From: Halostella pelagica
Lineage (GTDB): Archaea > Halobacteriota > Halobacteria > Halobacteriales > Natronoarchaeaceae
Length of the DNA: 64,000 bases
Direction: 5' to 3'
NCBI GenBank assembly: GCA_005954745.1
Contig: CP040678.1
Location: forward strand, 1,922,001 to 1,986,000
Positions 11,672 through 21,959 of the stretch are shown piece after piece. How positions within the stretch are numbered: position 1 is the first letter of the stretch; each line of letters opens with the position of its first letter. The position numbers were made by a program, and so were the translations under genes. The notes beneath the pieces are model-generated. The model saw nothing but the letters and a program-made list of their open reading frames with translations, had not been told where the DNA came from and searched no databases.

Positions 11672-11817
11672 GCTGTGAGAGTACCGACAGATCGGGCGAA
11701 GACGGTACGATCACGATCGAACGGTAGCAGCATAGGTGTTACTACTCGTCGTTGGAGTTGGGTTTTGACGGTTCTTTTCGTAAAAGATCGTTGGTCCGAT
11801 CATCTAGTCGCTCTAGG

Positions 11818-11829
11818 AAAAGTTATTAT
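11818..11829 (+). promoter_or_regulatory. TATA region of the liv operon
   Basis: The sequence aaaagttattat lies 40-50 nt before the LivH start. The distance allows a short leader carrying the ribosome-binding site at 11854. Confidence 0.45.
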
Positions 11830-11853
11830 GAGTCCGGAATTCCAGAGAGAAGT

Positions 11854-11859
11854 AAGGAG
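11854..11859 (+). promoter_or_regulatory. Shine-Dalgarno site of livH
   Basis: The sequence aaggag is followed 9 nt later by the ATG at 11869. It decides the livH start against the longer open frame from 11752. Confidence 0.6.
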
Positions 11860-11868
11860 TGTTGTAAC

Positions 11869-12981
11869 ATGGGTGTGTCAGAAAGATATTCGCGCGGACG
11901 GCAGTTCGTCGTCGAGCAACCGCTCGCGCTGGTCGTCGGGTTAGTTGTGATATGGATGGCATGGTTCCTCGTCGAGGGACTGGTAACCGGACGGTTACAG
12001 GTCAACAACGTCCTGGGATACCTCTGGGACGGCCTGTTACGTGGACTGATCATCGGCCTCGCCGGGATCGGTCTCTCGATGACGTACAGTATACTCAATT
12101 TCGCTAACTTCTCGCACGGCGATTACATCACGTCAGGTGCGTTCGCCGGGATGGCCGTTTCGTACCTCGTCGCCGGTTTTGGCGAGGCTGACATCGGATC
12201 GTTACTTCTCGTCGGTGCCGGTGGGTCGGTGTTCGGTGGTGCGCTGGGCGTCGGCATCGCCACGTCGCCGATAGGGATCATCGCAGGAATGGTCGTCGCG
12301 GCTATCGCGACGATAGCGCTCTCGCTTGTGATAGACAGGTTCGTCTACAAGCCGATCCGCGACGAGAGCGGCATCGCCCTGCTCATCACTAGTGTCGGCG
12401 TGGCGTTCGCTCTGCGCTATCTCATCGTGTTCGTCTTCGGGTCGCGCGTTCGCGGCACCACCGCGGCGGGCAGTCAACCGCAACTCCGCCTGGTGGCTGT
12501 CGACGGCTATCTCACGATAAACGCTCACGACGTCACGCTGCTGGTCGTGGCTGTCGGGCTAATGCTCGGCGTCCACTTCCTGCTTCAGCGGACGAAACTC
12601 GGCAAGGCGATGCGCGCCATGTCGGACAACGAGGACCTGGCTCGCATTACCGGTATCCCGACCGAACAGGTCGTTCGATCGACCTGGATCGTCGGCGGGG
12701 GCCTCACCGGTGTCGCCGGGTACATGTTCGTCCTCTGGAAGGGGACGGTCGGGTTCAACGACGGATGGCTGCTGTTGTTACTCATCTTCGCCGCCGTCAT
12801 TCTCGGTGGGATCGGATCGATCTACGGCGCTATCGCCGGTGGCATCGTCATCGGACTGACGGCATCGATGTCGGTCATCTGGATCCCGTCCGAGTTCGGC
12901 CGCGCTGCAGCGTTCCTCGTGATGATACTGATTCTCCTGTTTAAACCACAGGGACTCTTCAGTGGGAGGACGACAGCATGA
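11869..12981 (+). CDS. livH: Branched-chain amino acid-type ABC permease, LivH family
   Basis: A 370-residue polytopic membrane permease, the first gene of a four-gene importer operon. It shows the LivH pattern: early LLRGLIIGLAGIGLSMTYSI, NFANFSHGDYITSGAF, the cytoplasmic EAA-like loop LGKAMRAMSDNEDLARITGI (about residues 242-261) that contacts the ATPases, and a C-terminal VILGGIGSIYGAIAGG. The start follows the Shine-Dalgarno site; the upstream ORF extension is arginine- and serine-rich and implausible. Its stop overlaps the livM ATG by 4 bp. The family imports branched-chain amino acids, amides or urea. Confidence 0.92.
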   Translation: MGVSERYSRGRQFVVEQPLALVVGLVVIWMAWFLVEGLVTGRLQVNNVLGYLWDGLLRGLIIGLAGIGLSMTYSILNFANFSHGDYITSGAFAGMAVSYLVAGFGEADIGSLLLVGAGGSVFGGALGVGIATSPIGIIAGMVVAAIATIALSLVIDRFVYKPIRDESGIALLITSVGVAFALRYLIVFVFGSRVRGTTAAGSQPQLRLVAVDGYLTINAHDVTLLVVAVGLMLGVHFLLQRTKLGKAMRAMSDNEDLARITGIPTEQVVRSTWIVGGGLTGVAGYMFVLWKGTVGFNDGWLLLLLIFAAVILGGIGSIYGAIAGGIVIGLTASMSVIWIPSEFGRAAAFLVMILILLFKPQGLFSGRTTA

Positions 12982-14366
12982 GCGAAAGCAGCCTCCGGAG
13001 CCGGTTCGAAAGCCTACTCACCGGAGATCCGGGTCTCGTGATCGCTGTTCTCGGTGCGATCTACCTTGCGTACATCCTCGCGGGGATCGTCTTCGGCTTC
13101 ACCGTTCGGGGACACATGAACTCCCTGGCGAATCTCACGTTCTACATCGCCGTGTTCGGGATGCTCGCACTGGCGCTAAACCTCCACTGGGGGTACACCG
13201 GCATGTTCAACATCGGCGTCGTCGGGTTCATGGGGATCGGCGTCTACGTCACCGCGATCTTCTCCAAGCCGCCGGCGGCTCAGGGCGGCGCGGCCCAGGT
13301 CGGTGGTCTCGGACTTCCGCTCGGCGTCGGCGTCGTCGCCGGCGTTCTGGCAGCCGCGGTGTTCGGTGCGATCGTCGCCTTACCCGCGTTGCGTTTGCGC
13401 GCTGACTACCTTGCTATCGTGACTATCGCGTTCTCGGAGATCATGCGATTCACGTTCATGTCGTCGACGTTCGAGACGTTCACCGTTCCGGACACCTTCG
13501 ACCTGACTATACTCGGAACGACGCTGATTAGCTTCGACCCCGTGGCCGACACGGTCGGCTTCGGCGGCGGTAGCGGGCTGATCCTGAACTACGCGTCTCC
13601 GCTGGAGGCGTTTTTGAAGTTCCTGTTCCTCTGGGACCCGTATCTCGGCCTCGTCGATTTCGTCGGCGAGTACGCTATCCAGACCAATCCGAAACCGGTC
13701 GTCGATAGCCTGGTGTACGGGCTCCTGTTGCTGGTGGTCGTCGGCATCTACTACTGGCTGCTCACCTGGACCGGCGAGTCGCCGTTCGGTCGCGTCCTGA
13801 AGGCGATCCGCGAGGACGAGGACGTTGCGAACGCGCTCGGGAAAAACACGGACGTGTTCAAACTGAAAGCGTTCGTTCTCGGATGCGCGCTGATGGGCTT
13901 TGCGGGCGTCCTCTGGTACGCCGGCCGCGGGTCCATCACGCCGCCCTCGTTCCGACCGAACATCACGTTCTTCGTCTGGATCGCGCTCATCATCGGCGGA
14001 GCAGGGTCGAACACCGGAAGCGTCCTCGGCGGTGCCGTCTTCGCGGCACTGCTCTACGAGGGCCCGCGATACATCAAGAACCTCATCGAGGCGGCTATCG
14101 ACGTCGGCGATGGGCCGGGAAGCTTCGGACAGGCGATGGCAGCACTCGGGTCGTTCGACCCCGTCCCGTTCCTGGTGTACACGCTGAACAGTATCAGCCA
14201 ACTCCGGCTCGTCATCATGGGCGTCGTGTTGATCTACCTGATGCACAATCGGCCGGAAGGGATGTTGGGTCACCGGAAGGAAGTCGCATCGAGCATCGAC
14301 CTGTCGCGGCCCGAAGGTAGCGTCCACGAGGAACCAGCCGCGACCGACGGAGGTGAGAAAGAATGA
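12978..14366 (+). CDS. livM: Branched-chain amino acid-type ABC permease, LivM family
   Basis: A 462-residue permease, the partner of LivH. It has the LivM core NLTFYIAVFGMLALALNLHW, the motif GYTGMFNIGVVGFMGIGVYV, the coupling loop FGRVLKAIREDEDVANALGK (about residues 270-290) and the C-terminal ALIIGGAGSNTGSVLGG. It is longer than E. coli LivM because of an extra loop around residues 180-230 and a hydrophilic C-terminal tail. The ATG overlaps the livH stop and the livG ATG overlaps its own stop, so translation is coupled. Confidence 0.92.
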   Translation: MSESSLRSRFESLLTGDPGLVIAVLGAIYLAYILAGIVFGFTVRGHMNSLANLTFYIAVFGMLALALNLHWGYTGMFNIGVVGFMGIGVYVTAIFSKPPAAQGGAAQVGGLGLPLGVGVVAGVLAAAVFGAIVALPALRLRADYLAIVTIAFSEIMRFTFMSSTFETFTVPDTFDLTILGTTLISFDPVADTVGFGGGSGLILNYASPLEAFLKFLFLWDPYLGLVDFVGEYAIQTNPKPVVDSLVYGLLLLVVVGIYYWLLTWTGESPFGRVLKAIREDEDVANALGKNTDVFKLKAFVLGCALMGFAGVLWYAGRGSITPPSFRPNITFFVWIALIIGGAGSNTGSVLGGAVFAALLYEGPRYIKNLIEAAIDVGDGPGSFGQAMAALGSFDPVPFLVYTLNSISQLRLVIMGVVLIYLMHNRPEGMLGHRKEVASSIDLSRPEGSVHEEPAATDGGEKE

Positions 14367-15196
14367 GCGAAACGACAGAGACTGGAGAGCGGACGACCGC
14401 CCCGGACGATGAGGCACAGGGACGCACGCGCTACCCGCTACAAGTCGAGGGACTTCGGAAGACCTTCGGCGGTATCGTCGCCGTCGACGACATCGCGTTC
14501 GAGGTCGAAGAGGGGTCGCTGACCGGCCTCATCGGCCCCAACGGGGCCGGGAAGTCGACGACGTTCAACCTCATCACGGGGATGAACGACCCTGACGCCG
14601 GTACGGTCCGGTTCAACGGGGAGGACATCACGGGCCGTGCCCCCCACGAGATAGCCAACCGCGGGTTGGCTCGCACCTTCCAGATCGCCCGCGAACTGGA
14701 GGAGATGACCGTACTGGAAAACATGATGCTCGCTCCGAAGAACCAGCAGGGCGAGAAGCTCTGGCGCTCGATCACGCCCGGCGTCCGCGACAACGTGCGT
14801 CGACAAGAGGAAGAGGTGCTGGAGCGCGTCTGGGAGGTGCTCGACTTCTTCGAGATAGAACACCTCGCCGAGGAGTACGCGGGGAACCTCTCGGGCGGCC
14901 AGCGGAAACTGCTCGAAATGGCCCGCGCGCTGCTGACCGACCCCGACATGTTGCTACTCGACGAACCGTTCGCGGGCGTCAACCCGACGCTCGAAAAGCG
15001 GTTGCTCGACCACATTCACGAGCTCCGTCAGGACGGCTACACGTTCCTCATCGTCGAGCACGACATGGATCTCATCATGAACAACTGCGAGCGAGTGGTC
15101 GTCATGCACCAAGGGAAGATACTAATGAAGGGTACGCCGGCGGAAGTGAAAGAGAGCGAAGACGTCATCGAAGCGTATCTGGGGGGTGAAGTATGA
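14363..15196 (+). CDS. livG: ABC transporter ATP-binding protein, LivG family
   Basis: A 277-residue cytoplasmic ATPase. Walker A is GPNGAGKSTTFNLITG, the Q-loop region is ARTFQIARELEEMTVLENM, the signature is LSGGQRKLLEMARAL, Walker B is MLLLDEPFAGVNP and the H-loop is IVEHDMD. The insertion between Walker A and signature and the GVNP after Walker B are LivG features. The N-terminal 30 residues are an acidic extension. It forms the ATPase heterodimer with LivF and overlaps both neighbours by 4 bp. Confidence 0.95.
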   Translation: MSETTETGERTTAPDDEAQGRTRYPLQVEGLRKTFGGIVAVDDIAFEVEEGSLTGLIGPNGAGKSTTFNLITGMNDPDAGTVRFNGEDITGRAPHEIANRGLARTFQIARELEEMTVLENMMLAPKNQQGEKLWRSITPGVRDNVRRQEEEVLERVWEVLDFFEIEHLAEEYAGNLSGGQRKLLEMARALLTDPDMLLLDEPFAGVNPTLEKRLLDHIHELRQDGYTFLIVEHDMDLIMNNCERVVVMHQGKILMKGTPAEVKESEDVIEAYLGGEV

Positions 15197-15897
15197 GCCT
15201 ACTGGACGTTCAGGGTCTCGACGCCGGATACGGGGACCTGCAGATCCTCACCGATGTCGACCTGCACGTCGACGAGGAGGAGTACGTCACTATCGTCGGC
15301 CCGAACGGTGCCGGGAAGTCGACGATGATGAAATCCGTGTTCGGCCTGACGACGCATATGGACGGAACGGTAACGTTCGCGGGAGAAGACATCACTGCCG
15401 CCCAACCGGAAGACATCATCCACAAGGGGATGGGGTACGTCCCGCAGAGCGACAACGTGTTCGCGGGACTGTCCGTACAAGAGAACCTGGAGATGGGCGC
15501 GTACATACTAGACGACGTCCCGCAGGACGCGCTTCAGGACGTGTACAACCGCTTCCCGATCCTGGAAGAACGGAACGACCAGAAGGCCGGGACCATGAGC
15601 GGTGGTCAACAACAGATGCTCGCGATGGGTCGCGCGCTGATGTTAGACCCCGACTTGCTGTTGCTCGACGAACCGAGCGCCGGTCTCGCTCCCGACCTGG
15701 TCGACGAGATGTTCGACAAGATAGACGAGATCAACGAATCGGGAACGGCTATCCTGATGGTCGAACAGAACGCCAAAGAGGCGCTCCGGCGATGTGACCG
15801 CGGCTACGTGCTCGCAAACGGCGAAAACCGCTTCGTCGACAGCGGTACGACGCTGCTGAACGACGAGGAAGTGCGGCGGGAGTTCCTCGGCGGATAG
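15193..15897 (+). CDS. livF: ABC transporter ATP-binding protein, LivF family
   Basis: A 234-residue ATPase of the LivF class, normal length. Walker A is GPNGAGKSTMMKSVFG, then MGYVPQSDNVFAGLSVQENL, signature MSGGQQQMLAMGRAL, Walker B LLLLDEPSAGLAP and H-loop MVEQNAK. The GYVPQ and EPSAGLAP strings separate LivF from LivG. It ends the operon, followed by 151 bp before the convergent binding-protein gene. Confidence 0.95.
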   Translation: MSLLDVQGLDAGYGDLQILTDVDLHVDEEEYVTIVGPNGAGKSTMMKSVFGLTTHMDGTVTFAGEDITAAQPEDIIHKGMGYVPQSDNVFAGLSVQENLEMGAYILDDVPQDALQDVYNRFPILEERNDQKAGTMSGGQQQMLAMGRALMLDPDLLLLDEPSAGLAPDLVDEMFDKIDEINESGTAILMVEQNAKEALRRCDRGYVLANGENRFVDSGTTLLNDEEVRREFLGG

Positions 15898-16048: not shown

Positions 16049-17347
16049 TTAGCTCGACAGAGCGTCCTGGATGACCGAGGAGTAGGAGGATTCGCCCTTG
16101 TTGAAGCTGACCTTGTTCGTTATCTCGCCGTCGAATTCGTCCTCGAAGACATCGCTGAACCGGTCGGATAGCTGCTGGCCGTAGTCGTTGTTGACGTACA
16201 GCGTGGCCGCCGATTCGGCCTCCAGACGCTCCGAGGCGACCTGGGCCATGACGCGCCCCTGAAGCAGGTCGCTCGGGGCCGTCCGGTAGATGTAGTCGTT
16301 GTCGTCGAGATTCGTCACGGACAGCGCCGTACTGGACGGCGAGCAGCCGACGACTTCGTTGGGGATGAACACCTCCTGCGACACCGGGACGTTGACGCCG
16401 GACGACGCGGACCCGCAGATCGCGGGAACGCCCGCGCTAACGAGCGATTCTGCGCCGCTGACACCCTGGTCCGGGGAGGTGTTCGTGTCCTCGTAATGCT
16501 CGTTGACCGTCAGGTCGAGCCCCGACTCGTTCACCTGCTTGATCGGCAGTTCGGCGGCCTGAATCATCGGAACACCGACCGACGCCAGGTCACCGGTCTC
16601 GGGCAGGAGGATACCGACGTCGACCTCTCGGCCGAGACCGCCGGGCGAATCGTCCGCCGAGGGGCCCGCACCGTCGGGGTTGTCGCCCTCGAAGTTCTGG
16701 GTCTCTAACGTGTTGATGCCGTCCATCCCATCGTACTCCCAGATGGAGTAGGCCGCGGAGGCTGGGTCTCCGGCCTCGTTGAAGTTCGTCGCGGACGACG
16801 CGCCTTGGAAGTTGATGTTCTCGCCGTTGGCGGCCGCCTCGACGGCGTCGAGGTACTCGCCGGGGCCGTATTCGGTTCCGTCGGGGTTGGCGATGCGACG
16901 CATCTGGTCGCGGATCGCCGTCCCGTTGTTCTCGCCGGCCGCGACGTTGGCCAGGACAAGGAGAGCGACCGAGTCGTACGACTGGGACGTGAACACGCCC
17001 GGGCTCTCGTCGTACTCGTCCTCGTAGATACTGTTGAACGCATCCTGGTTCGGACCGCCGGCGGCCGGTGCCGTACCGGTGAGGTTACTCATTTCGTTGC
17101 CGACTTCGTTGGGCAGGTCCTGCTGTCGGAGACCGTCCGGAACGATGATGTCTTCCTCGCCGTCGGACTCGTCGTAGTAGTCCCGGAACAACTGGATCCC
17201 GCTCTCCGGGTAGCCGATAACGTTGAGCACGTCCGGGCCGCCGCCGCTGCCGTCGCCGCTCAGGTCGCCAATGCAACCTGCGACTCCAGCGATGCCAGTA
17301 ACACCTATTCCCTTCAAAACGTCACGCCGCCTCGTACTCCGTGGCAT
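16049..17347 (-). CDS. ABC transporter substrate-binding lipoprotein (LivJ type), circularly permuted
   Basis: A 432-residue secreted binding protein of the type 1 periplasmic-binding fold, convergent with livHMGF and presumably its receptor. Residues 1-25 are a twin-arginine lipoprotein signal (STRRRDVLKG, lipobox VAGC, lipidated Cys25). The mature domain is in reversed order: residues 38-218 (PDVLNVIGYPESG to SIWEYDG) match the C-terminal part of LivJ-like proteins, while residues 240-432 (REVDVGILLPETGDLASVG to SYSSVIQDALSS) match the N-terminal part. The acidic Gly/Asp/Pro linker at 219-239 joins the old C-terminus to the old N-terminus. All structural segments are present once, with no frameshift. 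Confidence 0.92.
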   Translation of the reverse strand: MPRSTRRRDVLKGIGVTGIAGVAGCIGDLSGDGSGGGPDVLNVIGYPESGIQLFRDYYDESDGEEDIIVPDGLRQQDLPNEVGNEMSNLTGTAPAAGGPNQDAFNSIYEDEYDESPGVFTSQSYDSVALLVLANVAAGENNGTAIRDQMRRIANPDGTEYGPGEYLDAVEAAANGENINFQGASSATNFNEAGDPASAAYSIWEYDGMDGINTLETQNFEGDNPDGAGPSADDSPGGLGREVDVGILLPETGDLASVGVPMIQAAELPIKQVNESGLDLTVNEHYEDTNTSPDQGVSGAESLVSAGVPAICGSASSGVNVPVSQEVFIPNEVVGCSPSSTALSVTNLDDNDYIYRTAPSDLLQGRVMAQVASERLEAESAATLYVNNDYGQQLSDRFSDVFEDEFDGEITNKVSFNKGESSYSSVIQDALSS

Positions 17348-17424: not shown

Positions 17425-17994
17425 CTATAATTCACGACACTCGGCACACACTAACTGGCCGTTGGCTTCGCGAAGCGTGTCGGCGAGGGACCCACACGTC
17501 TCACAGACGCTCTGGTCCGAGTACGCCCGCTCACCGTTCGCCACCGTGTTCGCTCTGCGGTCGTGGGAGTTTTCCACGGCCGAACGGGCTTGATTCGCCG
17601 TTTCAGGTCGGCGGAACGACGCGGCGGCAGCGATAACGTCACGGGCGGTCAACACTCCCTGTATCTCGTCGGCGTCCGTCACGACCAACCGTCTGACGTT
17701 CTCGCTCGACATCTTTCCCGCGGCGTTGCGAAGACGTTCGTCGGGAGCGACGGTGAGAACGGGCTCAGACATCACTGACGCGACCGTCGTCTCCCCGGGA
17801 GCGGCCTCGTCTGCGACCACACCGAGTACGTCCCACTCCGTGAAGATACCCACGGGGTCGCTTCCTCGGAGGACGACGACGCTCCCGGCTTCCTCCTCGC
17901 GCATGAGTTCTACTGCTCCCTGAACCGTATCGGATTCGCTCACGCCGACGTACTCTCTGGTCATCACGTCTCGGATCGTCACGTCGGTCTCCAT
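17425..17994 (-). CDS. CBS-pair protein with C-terminal zinc ribbon
   Basis: A 189-residue cytoplasmic protein. Two CBS motifs are visible: residues about 7-60 (TIRDVMTREYVGVSESDTV, VGIFTEWDVLGVV) and 70-125 (VASVMSEPVLTVAPDERL, QGVLTARDVIAAA). CBS pairs bind adenine nucleotides and regulate partner domains. A linker of about 35 residues leads to a C-terminal CETC-x17-CAEC motif, a likely zinc ribbon for protein or nucleic-acid contact. It lies 77 bp upstream of the binding-protein gene on the same strand; a shared function is possible but unproven. Confidence 0.9.
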   Translation of the reverse strand: METDVTIRDVMTREYVGVSESDTVQGAVELMREEEAGSVVVLRGSDPVGIFTEWDVLGVVADEAAPGETTVASVMSEPVLTVAPDERLRNAAGKMSSENVRRLVVTDADEIQGVLTARDVIAAAASFRRPETANQARSAVENSHDRRANTVANGERAYSDQSVCETCGSLADTLREANGQLVCAECREL

Positions 17995-18723: not shown

Positions 18724-19923
18724 TCAGTCGTCGCCGGCTTCCGGAGATCGCCCCGAGATATCGCCGTCCGGCCCCGAACTCTCGCCGAGTATCTCTCTCC
18801 GGTGTTCGTCGAGCAGTGGAGCGCGGCCGCCGGGTTCCGGCGGCGTTTCGGTCATCTTGATCGGCGATCCGGCGATGGTAACTTCACGGTCCGCGCCCGG
18901 CTGCTCGACCGGGACGAGCATCTCGCGGTCGCGGACGTGGGCGTCCTCGAACACGTCGGCGGTGGTCTGGACAGGCGCGACCGGAATGCCGTCGAGCGCA
19001 TCGAGGACGCCGTCCGTCGGGCGTGAGGCGGTCCAGTCCGCGATGGTGTCCCGGAGCGATTCGCGGTGCCGGAGGCGGCTCTCGGGATCCGGGTACTCGG
19101 CCGCGAGGTCCGGGCGGTCCATCGCTTCACAGAGCGTCTGCCAGTGCGCGTTTCCGAACGCCGCGACGACGACGTGGCCGTCCGCGGTTTCGAAGGCGTT
19201 GTAGGGAAACAGCGTCGGGTGGGAGTTCCCCTGACGAGTCGGCGCGTCGCCGGTGTAGGAGTACTGGTACACTGTCCGCTCGCACAGCGACACCATCGCA
19301 TCGTACATGCCGGTGTCGACGTACTGCCCCTCTCCGGTCCGGTCGCGGTGGTGGACCGCTCCCAGGATCCCCACGGCGTTCAACACGGCGGTGAAGAGGT
19401 CGCCGATGCCAGGGCCGACTTTCGTGGGCGGGCCGTCCTCCGCGCCCGTGATCTCCATCACGCCGCCGAGCGCCTGGGCGACCAGGTCGAACGAGGGTTG
19501 CCCCTGTCGATGCGTTTCGCCCGTTCGCGGGTCGCCGAACCCGCGGATAGAACTGTAGATAAGCTCCGAATTACGCTCGGTGAGCGTTTCGTATCCGAGA
19601 TCGAACTGTTCCATCGTGCCCGCGCTGTAGTTCTCGACGACGATGTCCGCGTGTTCGACCAGGTCGAGGAAGGCCGCACGGTCCGTTTCGTCCCCGAAAT
19701 CGAGTTCGAGACTCCGCTTGCCGCGGTTGACGCTCTGGAAGTACCCTCCGTACGCTTCCGATTCGGGGTCGTCCACGAACGGCGGATTCGACCGTATCAG
19801 GTCTCCTCCCGGGCGTTCGACCTTTACCACGTCCGCGCCCATGTCCGCGAGCAACATCGTACAGTACGGTCCGGCGAGCACTTGCGTCAGATCGAGCACG
19901 CGCAAGTCGTCGAGCGCTCCCAT
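18724..19923 (-). CDS. mct: Succinyl-CoA:mesaconate CoA-transferase (family III)
   Basis: A 399-residue CaiB/BaiF-type CoA-transferase. It starts MGALDDLRVLDLTQVLAGPYC, with the CoA-binding DVVKVERPGGDLIR and the nucleophilic Asp of the family in QPSFDLVAQALGG (about residues 139-151), then VNAVGILGAVHHR. Family III enzymes are broad, but divergent transcription from glutamate mutase, methylaspartate ammonia-lyase and mesaconyl-CoA hydratase points to transfer of CoA from succinyl-CoA to mesaconate. The C-terminal 20 residues are acidic and variable. Confidence 0.88.
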   Translation of the reverse strand: MGALDDLRVLDLTQVLAGPYCTMLLADMGADVVKVERPGGDLIRSNPPFVDDPESEAYGGYFQSVNRGKRSLELDFGDETDRAAFLDLVEHADIVVENYSAGTMEQFDLGYETLTERNSELIYSSIRGFGDPRTGETHRQGQPSFDLVAQALGGVMEITGAEDGPPTKVGPGIGDLFTAVLNAVGILGAVHHRDRTGEGQYVDTGMYDAMVSLCERTVYQYSYTGDAPTRQGNSHPTLFPYNAFETADGHVVVAAFGNAHWQTLCEAMDRPDLAAEYPDPESRLRHRESLRDTIADWTASRPTDGVLDALDGIPVAPVQTTADVFEDAHVRDREMLVPVEQPGADREVTIAGSPIKMTETPPEPGGRAPLLDEHRREILGESSGPDGDISGRSPEAGDD

Positions 19924-20075
19924 GGCCAGGGGTCCGAGGGGAGCGGTGAAAAAAGCACGTTATAGATCATGATGAATGTGGTTGTGTGTCACACCGGTGT
20001 CCAAACGTGTTTAATGAATATTATCATGATAGACCATTAAGTTTATCCGGAGCTCTCTCGTCCGCACTGATACCG
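19924..20075. promoter_or_regulatory. Divergent promoter region between mct and glmS with paired palindromes
   Basis: This 152-bp AT-rich region serves both arms of the methylaspartate cluster. The TATA-like ctataac (minus, about 19958-19964) faces mct and taagttta (20038-20045) faces glmS. The palindrome ATCATGAT occurs twice, at 19966-19973 and 20023-20030, each just outside a TATA element, and ACACCGGTGT (19991-20000) lies between them. The layout suggests a shared regulator; which one is not known. Confidence 0.5.
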
Positions 20076-20513
20076 ATGGCCCAGACAGTCATCCTCGGCG
20101 TGATCGGTTCCGACGCCCACGTCGTCGGGATCACGATCTTGGAACAGACGATGGAAGCGGCCGGGTTCGACGTCGTCAATCTCGGCGTGCAGTCATCACA
20201 GCAGGAGTTCGCCAGCGCGGCGGCTGAACACGACGCCGAGGCTGTACTGGTCTCTTCGCTCTACGGCCACGCCGAACAGGACTGCCAGGGCTTCCACGAA
20301 ACTCTCCGTGACGCGGGCACCGATGCAGTGACCTACATCGGCGGGAACCTCGCGGTCGGACAGAACGACTTCGAGGCGACGCGCGAACGGTTCCGCCGCC
20401 TCGGGTTCGACCGCGTCTTCGACTCCGAAACCGACCCACAGGAAGCTATCGCTGCTCTGCGACAGGACCTCGGACACAGAAACGCGGAGACAAAGGAGCG
20501 GGTCAGCGCGTAG
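20076..20513 (+). CDS. glmS: Glutamate (methylaspartate) mutase small subunit, B12-binding
   Basis: A 145-residue cobalamin-binding subunit of glutamate mutase, which converts L-glutamate to (2S,3S)-3-methylaspartate. The B12 lower-ligand motif D-x-H-x-x-G is DAHVVG (about residues 12-17), followed by NLGVQSSQQEF, VSSLYGHAE and the nucleotide-tail loop IGGNLAVG. The length is close to the 137-residue clostridial protein. The start at MAQTVILG fits the TATA element; the longer frame from 19986 runs through the promoter. The stop is directly followed by the glmE ATG. Confidence 0.95.
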   Translation: MAQTVILGVIGSDAHVVGITILEQTMEAAGFDVVNLGVQSSQQEFASAAAEHDAEAVLVSSLYGHAEQDCQGFHETLRDAGTDAVTYIGGNLAVGQNDFEATRERFRRLGFDRVFDSETDPQEAIAALRQDLGHRNAETKERVSA

Positions 20514-21959
20514 ATGATACGCGACGAACGCCTCCCCTCCGGCGAGTTGCAACGAATCGACGAGGCGGTCCGCGGGAACTGGCACACGGGCGACGACGTG
20601 GACTTCGAGGAAGCGGTCGCGTACCACGAGTCGCTCCCGCGGGAGAAGCAGTTCGCCCGCGTGCTGGAAACGGCGGACCGTCCGCTCCTTCAACCGCGTG
20701 CCGGCGTTCCGTGCCTCGACGACCAGATAGACCTCCTCCGACATCTGGAGCAGGACGGCCTCGCTGACCTGCTCCCGACTACCATCGACTCGTACACGCG
20801 GGACAACGAGTACGGAAAGGCAAAGCAGGGGCTCGAAGACGCCCGAGAGTCGGGCGACGACACGCTCAACGGCTTCCCGGCGGTCAATCACGGCGTCTCC
20901 GGTTGTCGCGAACTGATCGAGGCGCTCGACCGACCGATCGAGGTCCGACACGGCACCCCCGACGCCCGCCTGCTGGCGGCGGTGACGTTCGCGGGCGGGT
21001 TCCAGAGTTTCGAGGGCGGTCCCATCTCCTACAACATCCCCTACACGAAGGAAGGGAGCCTGGAACAGACCATCAAACACTGGCAGTACGTCGACCGCCT
21101 CGCCGGCGCGTACACCGAACGCGGCGTGCGGATCAACCGCGAACCGTTCGGGCCGCTGACCGGAACGCTCGTCCCGCCCTGCATCGCCATCGCGGTGATG
21201 CTCGTCGAGGGACTGCTCGCGGCCACGCAAGGCGTCCGGTCGCTCACGCTCGGCTACGGCCAGGTCGGCAACGTCGTGCAGGACGTAGCCGCGCTCCGCG
21301 CTCTGCGGGAGCTGGGCGAGGAGTTTCTCCCCGACGAAGTCACGGTTACAACCGTCTTCCACGAGTGGATGGGCGGGTTCCCGCCCGACGAGGCGCGCGC
21401 GAACGGCGTCATCGGCCTCGGCGCTGCTACCGCCGCCATCGCGCGACCGGACAAAGTCATCACGAAGTCACCGCAGGAGTTCCAGGGCGTTCCAACCAAG
21501 GAAGCGAACGCCGCGGGGCTCCGTACCACGCGACAGCTGATCGACATGCTAATCGAGCAGGACATCACCATCGACGGTATCGGCGAGGAACAGGAACTCA
21601 TCGAACGGGCGACCCGCTCGCTGATGGACGCCGTGTACGAACACGGGGACGGCGATGTCGCCCGCGGCGTCGTTCGCGCGTTCGAGTCAGGCGCGCTTGA
21701 CGTCCCGTTCGCCCCCAGCGACAGCGCGGCGGGGGACGTTCTCCCGGCGAGAGACGACGACGGCCGGGTCCGTATCTTCGCGTTCTCGGATCTCGCCGTC
21801 TCCGACGAGACGAAAGAGATCCACGAGGCGCGACTCGACGACCGCGCCCGGAGCGAGGACCGGGACCGCTCGTTCGCGATGGTCGCAGACGACGTGGACG
21901 CGATCAGCGACGGGAAACTCATCGGCCGTCCCACGGGGGGAGAGACCGATGCGGATTGA
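20514..21959 (+). CDS. glmE: Glutamate (methylaspartate) mutase epsilon subunit
   Basis: A 481-residue catalytic subunit of adenosylcobalamin-dependent glutamate mutase, close to the 483 residues of the clostridial enzyme. Recognisable segments are QPRAGVPCLDDQIDLLRHLE (about residues 60-80), FPAVNHGVSGCRELIEAL, EGGPISYNIPYTKEGSLEQT and ITKSPQEFQGVPTKEANAAG (about 317-336). The barrel is complete. It starts at the base after the glmS stop and overlaps mal by 11 bp, so the two subunits and the next enzyme are translated from one message. Confidence 0.95.
   Translation: MIRDERLPSGELQRIDEAVRGNWHTGDDVDFEEAVAYHESLPREKQFARVLETADRPLLQPRAGVPCLDDQIDLLRHLEQDGLADLLPTTIDSYTRDNEYGKAKQGLEDARESGDDTLNGFPAVNHGVSGCRELIEALDRPIEVRHGTPDARLLAAVTFAGGFQSFEGGPISYNIPYTKEGSLEQTIKHWQYVDRLAGAYTERGVRINREPFGPLTGTLVPPCIAIAVMLVEGLLAATQGVRSLTLGYGQVGNVVQDVAALRALRELGEEFLPDEVTVTTVFHEWMGGFPPDEARANGVIGLGAATAAIARPDKVITKSPQEFQGVPTKEANAAGLRTTRQLIDMLIEQDITIDGIGEEQELIERATRSLMDAVYEHGDGDVARGVVRAFESGALDVPFAPSDSAAGDVLPARDDDGRVRIFAFSDLAVSDETKEIHEARLDDRARSEDRDRSFAMVADDVDAISDGKLIGRPTGGETDAD

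Follow-up and report, generated by a model that had tools for sequence, protein, structure and literature searches.

A naturally circularly permuted LivJ-type substrate-binding lipoprotein at a haloarchaeal liv locus, probably permuted more than once

The liv locus and its rearranged binding protein

The window (the whole stretch of 64,000 nucleotides of Halostella pelagica contig CP040678.1 that was analysed) carries a livH-M-G-F cluster (11752-15897, +) that converges on a gene for a substrate-binding protein (SBP). The features of the locus and the segments of the SBP are as follows.

11752-12981 (+), LivH-type permease; PF02653, syntenic
12978-14366 (+), LivM-type permease; PF02653, syntenic
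14363-15196 (+), LivG-type ATPase; PF00005 and PF12399, syntenic
15193-15897 (+), LivF-type ATPase, convergent with the SBP gene; PF00005, syntenic
16049-17347 (−), circularly permuted LivJ/HAAT-type (PF13458) substrate-binding lipoprotein, form CP1; ATG start, 432 aa, from Pfam matches
17237-17347 (−), residues 1-37, Tat-type signal (RRRDVLKG), lipobox VAGC and Gly-rich spacer; from the sequence and weak TAT_signal matches
16694-17236 (−), residues 38-218, canonical C-terminal part, starting PDVLNVIGYPESG; PF13458 profile positions 190-312
16631-16693 (−), residues 219-239, linker from the old C-terminus to the old N-terminus; from comparison with canonical relatives
16052-16630 (−), residues 240-432, canonical N-terminal part, REVDVGILLPETGD to SYSSVIQDALSS; PF13458 profile positions 2-189
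17425-17994 (−), CBS-domain protein upstream of the SBP gene; PF00571, recurring at many liv loci

In most of the related loci that were fetched with their flanks, livHMGF faces a convergent SBP gene in the same way, often accompanied by the CBS gene. The CBS-domain protein of the window ends in a DUF7573-like Cys motif and is a possible regulator. Beside the liv locus, at 18724-21959, lie genes for a CoA-transferase III (−), a B12-binding subunit (+) and methylaspartate (glutamate) mutase E (+), which look like part of the haloarchaeal methylaspartate cycle.

The SBP is observed to run from the signal through the C-terminal part (38-218) and the linker (219-239) to the N-terminal part (240-432), with the signal peptide fused directly to the canonical C-terminal part, which also holds the hairpin that closes canonical relatives. 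The linker ends at a GRE-V motif, as does the spacer preceding strand 1 in canonical relatives, and the N-terminal part opens with REVDVGILLPETG and closes with SYSSVIQDALSS. Both the RRRDVLKG motif and the VAGC lipobox are present in the signal, which the Pfam and NCBIfam Tat models match below their cut-offs, and the lipobox cysteine (Cys25) is at least 90% conserved among permuted homologues.

A sequence-only reading of this DNA had proposed a circularly permuted LivJ-type lipoprotein with the same three segments, each occurring once. Its boundaries agree with our ORF analysis, a scan for internal duplication found each segment only once, and the Pfam alignment placed the two halves in swapped rather than collinear order, so that the proposal of a natural circular permutant is supported. 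Residues 242-431 matched positions 2-188 of PF13458 (Peripla_BP_6), and a genome-wide search with this profile assigned the 3′ half of the gene to positions 2-189 and the 5′ half to positions 190-312. The two stretches are therefore complementary and do not overlap, and the breakpoint falls at profile position 189/190, between a helix and the strand that follows it. In its native order the protein scored 94 bits over two stretches (curated cut-off 31.7); reordered, with the N-terminal part ahead of the C-terminal part, it gave one match over positions 2-312 of 343 with 116 bits, and aligned collinearly with the solved Leu/Ile/Val-binding proteins 4n0q, 4gnr, 3td9 and 2lbp. It thus passes for a PF13458 member by score but fails on N-to-C collinearity, positions 190-312 coming before 2-189. 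The genome also has a canonical paralogue (G000:C3:246474-247559), which was matched by residues 237-431 and then 35-207 of the query, with 40-42% identity; it lies on another replicon, identical in DNA to the Salinibaculum litoreum plasmid CP046867.1 across the 3.6 kb that were compared. No remnants of the lost halves were found in the flanks of the window SBP gene.

The sequence-only reading had also held that a working fold was likely, with the new termini at a helix-strand loop of lobe 2. An AlphaFold2 model based on an alignment of 41 permuted homologues (A1) is in line with the first point, being confident overall (mean pLDDT 85.4, pTM 0.83) with low confidence in the first 35 residues; a single-sequence model (pLDDT 31.7) was discarded and the alignment-based model used instead. 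Foldseek searches of the PDB with the model found Leu/Ile/Val-binding proteins, with about 190-200 columns aligned and a TM of about 0.5 by target, as expected because only one half can be aligned in sequence order. As to the second point, the helix/strand break holds, and its placement in lobe 2 follows from the lobe boundaries of LBP rather than from coordinates measured on the model. From this placement we infer that the new lipid-anchored N-terminus would lie at a helix-strand loop of lobe 2 rather than in lobe 1, and that the linker would add a further crossing, giving the chain four passes between the lobes rather than three without loss of the two-lobed flytrap fold or the ligand pocket. 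Changes in hinge mechanics, or in how the lobes are presented to LivHM, which the sequence-only reading had raised, are likewise only inferred possibilities. S316, T340, Y389 and D71 align with S79, T102, Y150 and the GDG-motif aspartate of the Atu2422 amino-acid receptor, positions described as ligand contacts in the LivJ/LBP literature; none of the four varies among the 41 permuted proteins. The ligand class is inferred to be amino-acid-like on the conservation of these pocket residues only, without binding data.

Distribution of the permuted order and a second permutant

When haloarchaeal genomes were searched for the same order, the full-length permuted form was found in all four other genomes of the genus (74-80% identity) and also in Halogeometricum limi, Halobellus rarus and Halobellus clavatus (69-80% for the genus and these species together), and its retention in this set excludes misassembly and chance. 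Counting genomes with a match at E 1e-75 or better, the permuted order occurs in 161 of the 394 Halobacteriales genomes sampled (about 40%) and in 37 of 95 genera. Among the matches listed, homologues were full-length and collinear with the permuted, not the canonical, order down to 48% identity, save for a few truncated or interrupted copies, while canonical homologues reached an E of about 1e-67 at best and matched in two pieces. In a phylum-wide sample, matches with an E of 1e-60 or better were confined to the order Halobacteriales, and a scan of viral contigs gave no relative. In a plasmid search identities did not exceed 48%, and where both halves matched they did so in two pieces, whose order in the bacterial records was not established. 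With its homologous parts swapped, each of them present once, the old termini joined and the order conserved in independent genomes, the protein meets the criteria for a naturally circularly permuted protein.

The mature permuted SBP has a dN/dS of about 0.22, which is low in all segments, and the 21-codon linker (0.11-0.31) is itself under purifying selection.

Several individual copies deserve mention. In G163:C2 (L107/L171) about 1.4 kb of inserted DNA, probably a mobile element, breaks the permuted gene; this 'partial' copy was considered as a new permutation and rejected, the gene being interrupted by the insertion. Two other permuted SBPs (L030:1492-2802, +, and L071:3877-5160, −) have signals in which the lipobox cysteine is missing (AGQVG and AGLMG), and may therefore be secreted rather than lipid-anchored. 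Tandem pairs of permuted SBP genes occupy the same locus in nine genomes of one genus, g27 (L071 and L161, from G037 and G190, and seven more).

At the liv locus the SBP is canonical in some haloarchaea and permuted in others. The 168 SBP sequences scanned, a set in which some loci were fetched twice, comprised 84 with the N-C order, 83 with the C-N order and one with a third order. Close canonical relatives have about 50-60% identity per half and lie in the same conserved operon neighbourhood as the permuted homologues. Since canonical and permuted SBPs share the livHMGF synteny, we regard them as belonging mostly to one orthologous locus at which the binding protein changed its topology.

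A second circular permutant was also observed at the liv locus.

L023:51-1412 (+), in MAG SW_9_67_25; second circular permutant, at the liv locus
L206, G707:C35:31531-32754 (−); second circular permutant, at the same liv locus

In L023 the order is signal, residues 281-431, residues 37-218, linker and residues 241-270. The first strand and helix of lobe 1 are now C-terminal, the main parts stand again in the canonical order, and the linker typical of the window's own group (group A, below) is retained; helix 1 and strand 2 of lobe 1 flank the break. L023 is at the end of a MAG contig, so an artefact was possible, and this was rejected once the independent copy in G707 was found to match this order across residues 44-452 of 453 with 90% identity, the two liv loci having 85% DNA identity. 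The second permutant is nested within group A in both the SBP and the transporter trees, and it therefore appears that an already permuted gene was permuted again.

Number of permuted lineages

SBP trees were built after all proteins had been reordered. The permuted SBPs form four well-supported groups, A (which includes the window), B, C and D, with canonical SBPs between them; group B, for example, joins the canonical L106 and L113 with support of 100/99. The canonical/permuted label changes four times on the SBP tree (5-95% bootstrap range 4-4), and the starred branches force two of these changes. Trees of the N-half and of the C-half need four changes each, and every permuted group is monophyletic in both. 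A single permuted SBP clade was rejected (p-AU 0.00046), as it was in a second data set under a simpler model (p-AU 0.017). The transporter genes rejected a clade of all permuted loci (p-AU 9e-7) and likewise A+B (1e-5), A+C+D (2e-4) and B+C+D (2e-5), but not A alone (p 0.37) or C+D (p 0.47). From the SBP sequences alone neither A+B (p 0.07) nor A+C+D (p 0.195) is rejected, so that the SBP itself forces only at least two permuted lineages, and since the groups were named after the trees had been seen, the AU p-values are optimistic. In all permuted groups the breakpoint is identical, the rearranged protein starting with PDxLxVxG and ending with SYxSxxxxAL, and the linkers differ among groups A, B and C/D. 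On these sequence comparisons we conclude that at least two, and probably three, permuted lineages exist at the liv locus, each with the same breakpoint.

The main rival is a single early haloarchaeal permutation, with several later reversions to the canonical order or with SBP genes exchanged between loci. Such an event would suit the identical breakpoint, and groups A and C+D do each fit one clade, but an all-permuted clade is rejected by the SBP sequences and by the transporter genes. The SBP sequences on their own leave A+B and A+C+D standing, and the C-half tree has all permuted groups on one side, beside a few canonical rows; against this, one gain costs more changes than three gains, because many canonical lineages sit between the groups, a reversion would be mechanistically no easier than a new permutation, and the linkers of A, B and C/D are not the same. 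We regard a single origin as unlikely, although it remains a serious contender. Repeated permutation can be put more strongly, namely that one SBP locus was permuted at least three times at an identical breakpoint and once at a second, driven by selection for a lobe-2 lipid anchor or by recurrent tandem duplication through the Gly-rich spacer. This stronger form we judge to be evenly balanced between right and wrong.

Route of origin, known systems and significance

Repeated permutation would place the rearrangement within the haloarchaeal family and at one fixed locus, with more than one event at the first breakpoint and a single event at another. We infer, as the likely route, that tandem copies arose by duplication, fused and were then trimmed at both ends, whereby the linker of about 20 residues would represent the old C-terminal tail joined to the old Gly-rich N-terminal spacer. 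The group A linker begins with the canonical C-terminal tail and leads into the GRE/GRT-V/I motif found ahead of strand 1 in canonical relatives, as expected because fused and then trimmed tandem copies would leave such a linker. The tandem permuted SBP genes in nine genomes indicate that duplication does occur at the locus. Neither a fused tandem or partly trimmed intermediate nor an internal duplication was present among the 168 SBPs.

Two models are standard for circular permutation, duplication-and-trimming and fission-and-fusion (PMC3320104). Splitting of the gene into halves and their refusion in the opposite order would also yield clean halves without redundancy, and the lack of a duplicated intermediate is in its favour, but none of the examined loci showed split halves, tandem SBP pairs exist, and the second permutant requires fused copies or a further permutation. 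Fission and refusion at this locus is accordingly doubtful, and duplication-and-trimming is favoured but unproven. The same model explains the circularly permuted DNA methyltransferases and saposin/swaposin, with intermediates documented for the methyltransferases (PMC3320104). These proteins are unrelated to the SBP and share with it natural permutation, whereas the haloarchaeal forms alternate at one syntenic transporter locus, where one breakpoint recurs.

That the SBP is decayed or non-functional, so that its order no longer matters, might be argued from the interrupted copy in one related genome (G163), but is highly improbable in view of the low dN/dS in all segments, the invariant pocket residues, the conserved signal and lipobox and the conserved pairing with livHMGF. 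An assembly artefact or a chimera of two SBP genes, which the sequence-only reading had named as the main alternative and which the position of L023 at a contig end brought up again, is ruled out for practical purposes by the identical order in 161 genomes, complete or near-complete ones included, by the monophyly of the permuted groups in both half-trees, by the independent confirmation of the second permutant in G707 and by equal GC3 in the two halves of the SBP gene.

We therefore consider it likely that the gene encodes a genuine, working permuted LivJ/HAAT-type lipoprotein for the adjacent LivHMGF, permuted more than once at a fixed haloarchaeal locus; it would bind an amino-acid-like solute and hand it over to the importer encoded alongside, ligand, transport activity and membrane orientation being untested. 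With LivJ/LivK and the HAAT SBPs (PF13458, Peripla_BP_6; type I/cluster B) it shares homology in both halves, the pocket residues and its nature as a lipoprotein encoded beside livHMGF, and canonical members occupy the same locus in other haloarchaea. It differs from them in the swapped parts, in the linker joining the old termini and in the signal placed on the lobe-2 strand PDxLxVIGYP.

The nearest precedent is Tp0684/TpMglB-2 of Treponema pallidum and its relatives, described in 2016 as 'Type Ic/Cluster Bc' (PMC4990184). Like the window SBP, TpMglB-2 is a type I binding lipoprotein that serves an ABC importer and is naturally permuted, in its case with crystallographic proof; its permutation creates a fourth hinge crossing, glucose binding and closure are retained, and its authors also speculated on anchoring (PMC4990184). 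It belongs to the sugar-binding (MglB) subfamily, and the first three strands of its lobe 1 are relocated to the C-terminus (PMC4990184). The window SBP is of the HAAT type; its break separates a helix from a strand in the lobe-2 part (PF13458 position 189/190) and does not follow the third strand of lobe 1, and the protein does not meet the Type Ic/Cluster Bc criterion. As it comes from another domain of life, its permutation was presumably an independent event. Searches of the open-access literature turned up no account of a permuted SBP of the LivJ type or from haloarchaea (most subscription papers were not covered).

A naturally permuted type I SBP is thus already known, and it is the repeated permutation at one locus that is surprising. 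Natural circular permutations are mostly known as single ancient events, often visible only by structure comparison. For annotation, we note that a one-domain profile search gives each half its own score and leaves such a swap unreported. The haloarchaeal SBP offers a natural experiment in protein rearrangement, in which the same swap has apparently recurred at one gene position, with canonical and permuted forms in one operon neighbourhood across many sequenced species and a younger second permutant beside them.
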